64,000 nucleotides of DNA from an uncultured Bacteroidota bacterium (GTDB taxonomy: Bacteria > Bacteroidota > Bacteroidia > Flavobacteriales > Flavobacteriaceae): contig CABXVR010000006.1 in NCBI GenBank assembly GCA_902515565.1, forward strand, positions 1-64,000, in the 5' to 3' direction. The position numbers and the translations under genes were made by a program. This document shows, piece after piece, positions 44,837 to 47,602 of this stretch. The notes under the pieces are model-generated. The model saw only the letters and a program-made list of their open reading frames with translations, did no database searches and was not told where the DNA came from. Position 1 is the first letter of the stretch; each line of letters opens with the position of its first letter.

Positions 44837-46414
44837 TTGAAAAAAAAAGTTAACATATTTTTATTTAGTTCTTTACTTTTAATTTCATTAACCAATATAT
44901 TTTGCCAAGAAAACACACGTATCCAAATTGATAGTGCTGGTTTTTTTGAAAAAGATGACATAAAGTTTTCCAACGCTACAATTTTAACTAGAAATAATAA
45001 AAATAAAGTTAAAATATCTCATGATGGTGTTGATATGTGGTGTAACCAAGCTTTTTTCTATGAAAATAAAAATTACATCGAAGCATATGGTGATGTTATT
45101 TTAATACAAGGTGATACAATTAATTTAAAATCTCAGTATTTAGAATATGACGGAGATACAAAAATCGCATTTGCAAGTGGAAAAGTAAAACTAACAGAAC
45201 CTAATTCTGTTTTATTAACTGACTCACTATATTTTAACAGAAATAAACAAGAAGCGTTTTACAATAATTACGGTCGAGTTATTAAAGAAAAACAAGACAC
45301 AATTGATAGCAAGATTGGAAATTACTTGCTCGAAAACAAAAAATATGAATTCAAAATCAATGTCTTATTAAAAAACCCTAAATATAAAATAAATACACCC
45401 AGATTAGATTTCTACACTGAAAATGGTCATGCTTATTTCTATGGACCAACACAAATAAAAAGTAAAGAATCTAATATATATTGTGAGTTAGGATTTTACA
45501 ATACCAATAGTGATACTGGATACTTTATTAAAGAATCTAAAGTTGATTTCAAAAACACTACTATACTAGCGGATAGTATTTATTTTGACAGAAATTTAAA
45601 TTTTGCATCAGCAACAAGTAATATTAAAATTATAGATACTATAAATGAAAATATAACAAAAGGTAATTATGCGGAAATATTCAAGAATAAGGACTCTATG
45701 TTCATAACAAAACGTGCTATTATAGCATCCAAGCAAAATAAAGATTCTATATATATTCATAGTGATACAATTTTAATAACTGGAAATGAACAAAATAGAG
45801 TAATTAGAGCTTTTAAAAATGCCAAAATATTCAAACAAGATTTAAGTGGACGAGCTGATTCTATTCACTATGATAAATCTAATGGATTAGCTCAATTTAT
45901 AAATATTAATAAACAACTAGATTTATCATTCACAAATGCAAAAAAGCCTATATTGTTTAATTTCAACAATCAAATCACTGGAGATACTATAGTTTTGAAA
46001 TTTGAAAAAACTACTAACAAAATTGACTCGTTAATAGTTTTCAATAATGCGTTTATTCTTGAAAAAGATTCTTTAGGAACAGGATTTAATCAAATTTCTG
46101 GAAAATCATTACTAGGGAAATTTATTGATAATGAATTAAAAAGCATAGATCTTATTAAGAATGCAGAATCTATTTACTATTTAAGAAATGATGAAAAAGA
46201 ATTAGTTTCTATAGATAAATCTAAGTCTGCTAAATTAAAAATATATTTTAAATCAAACGAGATTGAAAAGATTCAAAAAATAAATCAAATTGATGGAAAA
46301 ACATATCCTGAAGAAAAATTTACTGAGAATATTAAATTATTAAAAGGGTTTAACAATAGACTCAATGAAAAGATCTTATCTATTAAAGATCTTTTTAAAC
46401 TAAAAAAAGAATAA
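44837..46414 (+). CDS. OstA-like (LptA/LptD N-terminal-like) exported protein
   Basis: A 525-residue exported protein starting at TTG, which gives a good signal peptide (MKKKVNIFLFSSLLLISLTN, ending FCQE). The body is a chain of OstA/LptA-type beta-jellyroll repeats, for example YGDVILIQGDTINLKSQYLEYDGDTK-like units and FASGKVKLTEPNS. Such domains form the bridge carrying lipopolysaccharide across the periplasm, so a role in LPS transport is the working view. The stop TAA is in the same frame as the aminotransferase that follows. Confidence 0.86.
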   Translation: MKKKVNIFLFSSLLLISLTNIFCQENTRIQIDSAGFFEKDDIKFSNATILTRNNKNKVKISHDGVDMWCNQAFFYENKNYIEAYGDVILIQGDTINLKSQYLEYDGDTKIAFASGKVKLTEPNSVLLTDSLYFNRNKQEAFYNNYGRVIKEKQDTIDSKIGNYLLENKKYEFKINVLLKNPKYKINTPRLDFYTENGHAYFYGPTQIKSKESNIYCELGFYNTNSDTGYFIKESKVDFKNTTILADSIYFDRNLNFASATSNIKIIDTINENITKGNYAEIFKNKDSMFITKRAIIASKQNKDSIYIHSDTILITGNEQNRVIRAFKNAKIFKQDLSGRADSIHYDKSNGLAQFININKQLDLSFTNAKKPILFNFNNQITGDTIVLKFEKTTNKIDSLIVFNNAFILEKDSLGTGFNQISGKSLLGKFIDNELKSIDLIKNAESIYYLRNDEKELVSIDKSKSAKLKIYFKSNEIEKIQKINQIDGKTYPEEKFTENIKLLKGFNNRLNEKILSIKDLFKLKKE

Positions 46415-46417
46415 AAC

Positions 46418-47602
46418 ATAAAAAAAGAATTTCACAAATATCAGGCTCAGGTAACTCCACATCCTCTAGAAATAGAAGTTAAAAGAGCGGATGGTTGTTA
46501 TATTTATGATATTAATAATAAAAAATATTTAGATTTTATAGCAGGTGTTTCTGCTTGTAGTTTAGGCCATTGCAACCCTGATGTGATTAAAGCAATCAAA
46601 AAACAACTAGACAAATATCTACATGTTATGGTTTATGGTGAATTTATACTTAAACCAGCTGTTGATTTAACTAAATTATTATCTGACCACTTACCGGAAG
46701 AATTAGATTCTACGTACTTAACAAATTCTGGAACTGAAGCAATTGAAGGTGCAATAAAATTAGCAAGAAGATACACAGGAAGAAAAGAAATAATTGGAGC
46801 AAATAATGCCTATCATGGAAGTACATTGGGTGCTCTGACATTAATGGGTAAAATTGAAAACAGAAAACCTTTTGAGCCACTTTTACCAGAGGTCAATTTT
46901 ATAAACTTTAATAACCTAAATGATATAGATAAAATAACATACAGAACTGCTGCAGTAATTTTAGAAACTATTCAGGGTGCAGCAGGATTTATAGAACCTC
47001 ATGATGACTATCTACATTTAGTTAGCGAAAAATGCAAAGAGGTTGGAGCATTACTAATTCTGGATGAAATTCAACCTGGAATAGGACGTACAGGAAAATT
47101 ATTTGGATTTGAAAATTACAATTGCGTACCAGACATAATAGTTACTGGAAAAGGACTTGGTGGTGGTATGCCCATAGGAGCATTTATTAGCTCAAAAAAA
47201 ATTATGAATACTATTAGTAATAACCCAAAATTAGGTCATATTACTACTTTTGGGGGGAACGCTGTTATAGCAGCTTCTGCCTATCAAACACTAAAAATAA
47301 TTACAGAATCAAGTTTAATGAAGCAAACATTAAGCAAAGAGAGTCTTATTAGAAAAAAATTAAAGCATCCTTTAATAAAAGAAATAAGAGGAAAAGGATT
47401 AATGCTAGCCATCATTCTTGAGAGTCCAGAAATAGCTGATAAATTAGTTATTAAGTGTAAAGAAAATGGTCTACTGTTATTTTGGTTATTAATTGAAAAA
47501 AAAGCAGTTAGAATTACACCCCCACTAACAATAAGTGAAAAAGAAATTTTAATAGGATGCAAAATAATTATTGAGCAACTAGAAAATTTAAGTGTTAATT
47601 AA
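46418..47602 (+). CDS. class III aminotransferase with apparent ATA start codon
   Basis: PLP-dependent aminotransferase of ~394 residues (acetylornithine/4-aminobutyrate type). The conserved N-terminus KKEFHKYQAQVTPHPLEIEV, then KYLDFIAGVSACSLGHCNP, is encoded well upstream of the first usual start, a GTG at 46583. In this frame the preceding stop TAA (46412-46414) is the stop of the OstA-like gene, and no ATG, GTG or TTG lies between. The position of the expected Met is ATA at 46418. The PLP-binding Lys is in TGKGLGGGMPIG. Beginning at GTG would remove 55 conserved residues. It may use AUA, or carry a start-codon mutation or a sequence error. Confidence 0.85.
   Translation: MKKEFHKYQAQVTPHPLEIEVKRADGCYIYDINNKKYLDFIAGVSACSLGHCNPDVIKAIKKQLDKYLHVMVYGEFILKPAVDLTKLLSDHLPEELDSTYLTNSGTEAIEGAIKLARRYTGRKEIIGANNAYHGSTLGALTLMGKIENRKPFEPLLPEVNFINFNNLNDIDKITYRTAAVILETIQGAAGFIEPHDDYLHLVSEKCKEVGALLILDEIQPGIGRTGKLFGFENYNCVPDIIVTGKGLGGGMPIGAFISSKKIMNTISNNPKLGHITTFGGNAVIAASAYQTLKIITESSLMKQTLSKESLIRKKLKHPLIKEIRGKGLMLAIILESPEIADKLVIKCKENGLLLFWLLIEKKAVRITPPLTISEKEILIGCKIIIEQLENLSVN

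Follow-up and report, generated by a model that had tools for sequence, protein, structure and literature searches.

Where does translation of a gene begin when its conserved reading frame opens without an ATG, a GTG or a TTG? The question is raised by a class III aminotransferase gene in the window, the stretch of 64,000 nucleotides analysed here, which is contig 6 of the AT-rich genome of an uncultured member of the Flavobacteriaceae (G000; 1.27 Mb, 53 contigs, 65% complete). A preliminary description had placed the frame right after the stop of an OstA-like gene, with none of these three usual starts ahead of a GTG well inside it, and a reading of the window sequence bears this out. The OstA-like TAA is followed by AAC (46415-46417), ATA (46418-46420) and then AAA AAA GAA TTT CAC, in a frame that stays open as far as the TAA at 47600-47602 and whose first usual start, the internal GTG, comes 165 bases (55 codons) past the ATA. 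The described adjacency of stop and ATA stands; the distance of four bases given for it does not, as three bases lie between them. The PF00202 (Aminotran_3) model covers residues 16-387 of the frame read from 46415, with 317.7 bits against a gathering cut-off of 30.5, which places the product among the class III aminotransferases. The best NCBIfam model is TIGR00707, of the ArgD subfamily, and here the score of 346.5 bits falls under the cut-off of 410.05, outside membership of that subfamily. On our reading of the window-wide tables this is the sole clear gene of the window whose conserved N-terminus extends 5' of all usual starts. Among its neighbours, the OstA-like gene has TTG as its first in-frame usual start, both in the window and in three congeners (G004, G001 and G003), and a RelA/SpoT-like gene (window 40836) has TTG or GTG.

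Features of the aminotransferase locus (window coordinates) and four further candidate genes with an AUA, AUU or AUC start
Feature	Position	Strand	Remarks
OstA-like (LptA/LptC-type) gene, TTG start, directly 5' of the aminotransferase	44837..46414	+	PF13100 OstA_2, E 3.8e-37
OstA-like stop codon TAA	46412..46414	+	three bases ahead of ATA
A-rich leader, A at -3, without Shine-Dalgarno match	46397..46417	+	76% A; longest SD-core match 3 nt
Proposed start codon ATA	46418..46420	+	aligned to ATT/ATC or ATG/TTG/GTG of orthologs
Class III aminotransferase (ArgD-like) CDS	46418..47602	+	PF00202, E 1.2e-94
First in-frame usual start, GTG (conserved Val)	46583..46585	+	a start there would lose 55 conserved residues
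16S-methyltransferase-like gene (candidate)	L195:5443-6162
TrmN-like gene (candidate)	L190:12832-13608
OmpH-like gene (candidate)	L153:8396-9553
M14 peptidase gene (candidate)	L158:10897-12012

The answer that the comparison of orthologs most strongly favours is that translation very probably does begin at the ATA itself, as a case of AUH initiation, where AUH is shorthand for an AUA, AUU or AUC start codon. The ordinary initiator fMet-tRNA would begin there with Met-Lys-Lys-Glu-Phe, at a weak start that would be inherited, having taken the place of a usual one in an ancestor. No Shine-Dalgarno sequence would be needed, the start instead being served by an A-rich leader on or beside the OstA-like stop.

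The position and conservation of this codon are directly visible in the orthologs. The search covered 60 genomes including the window's own, of which 58 gave a match, some only with paralogs. Four further members of the genus were in the searched set (G001, G002, G003 and G004; the genus genomes are 65-82% complete), G002 yielding distant paralogs only. The orthologs of the other three, with 79-93% protein identity (G004, G001 and G003, at loci L003, L004 and L005), all have ATT opposite the window's ATA, while ATC occupies the aligned codon in a sister MAG (L036) and in G012, which belongs to a separate genus. The wider set consisted of 108 ortholog rows, namely 30 loci of the genome search and 78 of the best 80 loci listed from named genomes; L032 and L033 were left out as repeats of G001 and G003, and duplicate removal between the two genome sets was limited to these. 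A usual start lies within eight codons of the anchor in 102 of the 108 (ATG 56, TTG 29, GTG 17), and in 92 of these 102 its distance to the conserved Phe of a downstream F..YQAQ motif is exactly four codons. The remaining six, from the window, G001, G003, G004, L036 and G012, have ATA, ATT or ATC at that same four-codon position. Usual starts other than ATG are common at this gene, with ATG in 56 of 108 rows against 86-93% among single-candidate-start ORFs of seven sampled genomes, a comparison that is descriptive and no clean test because the rows are related. In a quick maximum-likelihood tree without bootstrap, L036 and the genus form one group (SH-aLRT 99) and G012 sits elsewhere, so that the simplest history would have two replacements of the usual start, one in the common ancestor of L036 and the genus and the other in G012. 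On the same tree, four MAGs recorded as Bifidobacterium breve, Rhizobium or Klebsiella (L054, L067, L076 and L111) have their aminotransferase among Flavobacterium, which suggests mislabelled or mixed bins.

This distribution bears on the four options raised in the preliminary description, namely true AUA initiation beside the upstream stop, a start-loss mutation, a sequencing error and readthrough of the OstA-like stop; the first is the one that the relatives back. A check for ATG at this codon in relatives had been proposed, and none appears in the nearest of them (ATT in the three congeners, ATC in L036 and G012), the ATG, TTG and GTG forms being found in distant genera. A recent loss of the start, or an ATG misread in sequencing or assembly, would take no more than a single G to A change to give ATA, and a lone MAG could be wrong. 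Both are nevertheless highly improbable because the three congeners have ATT and L036 and one other genus ATC: an AUH codon is present in five of the five genomes of the genus and L036 group, each a separate genome, the ATT and ATC forms require other substitutions, and the reading frame is without decay.

Is the stretch between the ATA and the internal GTG coding at all? Codons 1-54 of the aminotransferase are under purifying selection. The four genus members with an ortholog make six pairs, and the four pairs that allowed a computation give dN/dS values of 0.05-0.13 for this stretch, near that of the rest of the gene. When the window is compared with G004, G001 and G003, third positions account for 13, 27 and 26 changes, and first and second positions combined for 8, 10 and 13. 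With the PF00202 match, and with the ATA standing at the start codon of the orthologs, the N-terminus is conserved as had been proposed. The obvious rival is that translation begins at the internal GTG, which would leave the first 55 codons as untranslated sequence or as a relic, a reading that can appeal to the GTG being the first in-frame usual start and being present in four of four genus members. It is nonetheless quite unlikely: besides the coding-like dN/dS of codons 1-54, the N-terminus aligns with full-length orthologs having their own ATG, TTG or GTG, the next usual codon in L036 and G012 is instead a TTG at codon 16, and the bases directly preceding the GTG are not A-rich. A second, short product from this GTG is possible because the codon is kept in the four genus members though they seldom use GTG for Val (8 of 73 Val codons, four of those eight being this very site; the Val-site count left out 21 of the 108 rows, which lack the anchor).

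If the start is not internal, could it lie further upstream? Between the AUH codon and the in-frame stop that precedes it there is no usual start in five of the six AUH orthologs, the stop lying 3 nt upstream in G000, 3 nt in G003, 18 nt in G004, 9 nt in L036 and 39 nt in G012. The exception is G001, where in-frame ATGs are found 11 and 18 codons 5' of the AUH codon and could serve, so that an upstream usual start is possible in that genome; as a general explanation an upstream start is very improbable. A fusion protein made by readthrough of the OstA-like stop is suggested by the window, in which the two genes share one frame with three bases between them. This is disfavoured, to the point of being barely credible, because the frame relation differs between congeners: in G004 the OstA-like stop lies 2 nt upstream in another frame, and in G001 and G003 the two genes overlap by 5 nt as ATTAA, again with the stop in another frame.

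What does stay constant around the AUH codon is its closeness to the end of the upstream gene. The distance from the OstA-like stop to the start is +3 nt in the window, +2 in G004, -5 in G001, -5 in G003, +4 in L036 and -11 in G012, so that all six AUH orthologs have the overlap or very short stop-start distance expected of termination-reinitiation. In the 91 orthologs with an OstA-like gene upstream, a spacing of -11 to +5 nt is found in six of six AUH cases against 25 of 85 others, the six AUH orthologs representing only two lineages. The -5 overlap is described as impossible with the usual starts and possible with ATT (PMC10666635). Because the leader adjoins or overlaps the OstA-like stop, ribosomes finishing the OstA-like gene would probably restart at the AUH codon, and with so short a spacing coupling of the two genes is plausible, indeed somewhat favoured. 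Coupling as a general condition for AUH starts is rejected, as the TrmN-like and M14 peptidase starts described below have no abutting upstream ORF, no long same-strand ORF ending within 400 nt upstream of either. The leaders themselves give no sign of Shine-Dalgarno pairing, with no SD-core match longer than 3 nt in the 16 leaders examined of 24 listed start sites. All six AUH aminotransferase leaders have A at -3, a feature reported as a positive determinant for F. johnsoniae, in a phylum without Shine-Dalgarno sequences (PMC6847099). Predicted folding around the start is weak in three of four genus members and modest in G001, and no conserved hairpin was found at the start region in the folds of these four.

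The aminotransferase is not the only gene of this kind. Long ORFs with their first usual start deep inside were sought in the window, in 28 stretches of G000 and in parts of other genomes, and their orthologs were checked. This gave, by eye, seven AUH genes among 499 ORFs of at least 100 codons in G003, five of 525 in G000, one of 451 in G008, one of 166 in G012 and none of 219 in G028; these counts are no between-genera test of rate, as some stretches were chosen for a gene of interest and only ORFs with deep starts are visible. The single gene is infC in the AT-rich G008 and the aminotransferase in G012. The final count of cases in the genus, excluding infC and the aminotransferase, is eight. 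For infC (L132-L143; L162:8186-8749) no ATG, GTG or TTG stands at the conserved N-terminus in the 12 Flavobacteriales loci read of 20 matches; the basic stretch is preceded by ATT, ATA or ATC in 11 of the 12 and by CTG in L142, and in most loci a further ATH or CTG lies two codons earlier, so that either codon could be the start.

The clearest exchange of start codons is seen in a DEDD exonuclease/GIY-YIG gene (L305-L336, orthologs of L291:17918-19294). In the 29 readable of its best 30 loci (L328 was dropped, as no motif was found), the position five codons ahead of the motif Asp is taken by ATG in nine, TTG in nine and ATT, ATA or ATC in 11, with no other codon seen. Ile codons make up 9.9% of the codons in these genes, and a column limited to ATG, TTG and ATH has the appearance expected of a start codon. 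The 11 AUH orthologs come from eight genera and have no usual start back to the preceding stop, and well-supported branches of the exonuclease tree force at least four changes of the AUH label. No ortholog was found in the window's own incomplete genome. One locus there (G000:C7:45726-46466) matches the GIY-YIG part and is probably uvrC; the one TAG and one TAA within its aligned stretch suggest an alignment artefact because matches in other genomes show similar stops.

Within the genus the same substitution is seen against usual starts outside it. For instance, a DUF5698/DUF2179 gene (L127:8675-9178, minus strand; L165, L166) has ATC in the three of three congeners having the gene and ATG in G046; it overlaps its upstream gene by 13 nt, and its next usual start comes after 89 codons in two of them, one being the window's genome, and after 25 in G001. 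The OmpH-like gene has ATT in the four congeners read and ATG in the five outside orthologs read, and the 16S-methyltransferase-like gene (under its model cut-off) has ATC or ATT in five of five genus members and ATG or GTG in five of five outside. The TrmN-like gene, also under cut-off, has ATA or ATT in both genus members with an ortholog and ATG in four of four outside, and the M14 peptidase has ATA or ATC in G000 and G004 and ATG in G001 and G003. The AUH codons of the genus candidates are often doublets (ATC ATC, ATA ATA or ATT ATT), and because two ATH codons adjoin, the exact start is uncertain in several of them. A further gene, waaA (L152:4595-5818), resembled an AUH case and is an uncertain candidate. 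The main frame of prfB in G003 (L297:15753-16808, identified by a prfB model match) and of its homolog in G008 (L276:11148-12176) also has no early start codon, which we take to be the programmed frameshift of RF2.

Does the genus, then, read AUH codons with special machinery? The several genes just described might suggest that AUH has become an ordinary start in the genus through a second, dedicated initiator tRNA or a relaxed IF3; this is very unlikely all the same. A pattern search allowing up to three mismatches gave one initiator-like tRNA in each of G000, G001, G002 and G003, with a CAT anticodon and three G:C pairs, and no match in the incomplete genome of G004. The IF3 of the window's genome aligns to the best-matching solved IF3 over 173 residues, the FLYE linker included. 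Because IF3 and the initiator tRNA look normal by these comparisons, nothing points to a special decoder, and the ordinary fMet-tRNA would be the simplest agent of initiation at the ATA. A genus-specific loss of start stringency was likewise set aside: there is no sign of it in IF3 or the initiator tRNA, and the exonuclease has AUH starts in other genera too.

How does the aminotransferase start compare with AUH starts already known? Those of E. coli, Streptomyces and S. aureus are real, and are reported as weak or sensitive to IF3 (PMC5472188, PMC13009471). In S. aureus, AUA and AUU starts are reported to give about 10% of the AUG yield in poor medium, with ccpN reaching up to 30% in rich medium (PMC13009471), and for ATT in E. 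coli a figure of about 0.3% relative to ATG is given (PMC10666635, citing Hecht 2017); annotated AUA, AUU and AUC starts are counted among the permitted ones in 260 species (PMC5397173). By analogy, IF3 may hold the yield of the aminotransferase low, although IF3 control of this start is a tentative proposal, rather less than an even prospect. As with infC (AUU, AUA or AUC in E. coli, Streptomyces and S. aureus), the AUH codon lies at a conserved N-terminus, and usual starts are missing there from the host's own infC as well. Unlike infC, the aminotransferase is a metabolic enzyme with no evident autoregulatory loop and no Shine-Dalgarno match. It shares with S. aureus cvfC1 (AUU), ccpN (AUA) and citZ (AUA) the character of a non-infC AUH gene, and the cvfC1 and ccpN starts are reported as conserved; those three are described with an extended Shine-Dalgarno sequence (PMC13009471), whereas the aminotransferase has no such match and adjoins an upstream stop. 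Streptomyces sigR is another non-infC gene with a rare start, and its regulatory elements are called conserved across Streptomyces. It differs in being a regulator with a GTC codon, for which IF3 repression is reported from direct tests (PMC5472188), the aminotransferase being known from its sequence. Finally, G001 and G003 have the exact ATTAA overlap that the non-canonical ATT allows in termination-reinitiation pairs (PMC10666635), coupling here being suggested by spacing.

The class of phenomenon is known. Literature searches in which few subscription journals were covered returned no paper on AUH starts in Flavobacteriaceae, nor was any description found in that searched literature of the setting free of Shine-Dalgarno sequences, of ordinary genes as the carriers, of AUH and UUG replacing each other at one fixed codon or of the spread through the family. 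In bacteria, AUH starts are known at infC and at a few genes besides, the recent S. aureus ones having strong Shine-Dalgarno motifs; here they stand behind leaders without such motifs, in ordinary genes, at positions that different genera share, and alternate there with UUG or AUG. They offer a natural test set for how the 30S subunit chooses a near-cognate start without SD pairing, for the effect of a neighbouring stop codon and for an expression programme that IF3 might set in common. Gene finders restricted to ATG, GTG and TTG would clip conserved N-termini: the aminotransferase would lose 55 residues, and the DUF2179 gene in the genome of the window 89 codons. It is an evenly balanced proposition that AUA, AUU and AUC form a regular fourth class of start in the Shine-Dalgarno-less Flavobacteriaceae, used by recurring genes (infC, the DEDD/GIY-YIG exonuclease and the aminotransferase, with about 1% of the sampled genes in the genus) and exchanging with UUG, which would make up an IF3-tuned set of low expression that gene finders miss or truncate.
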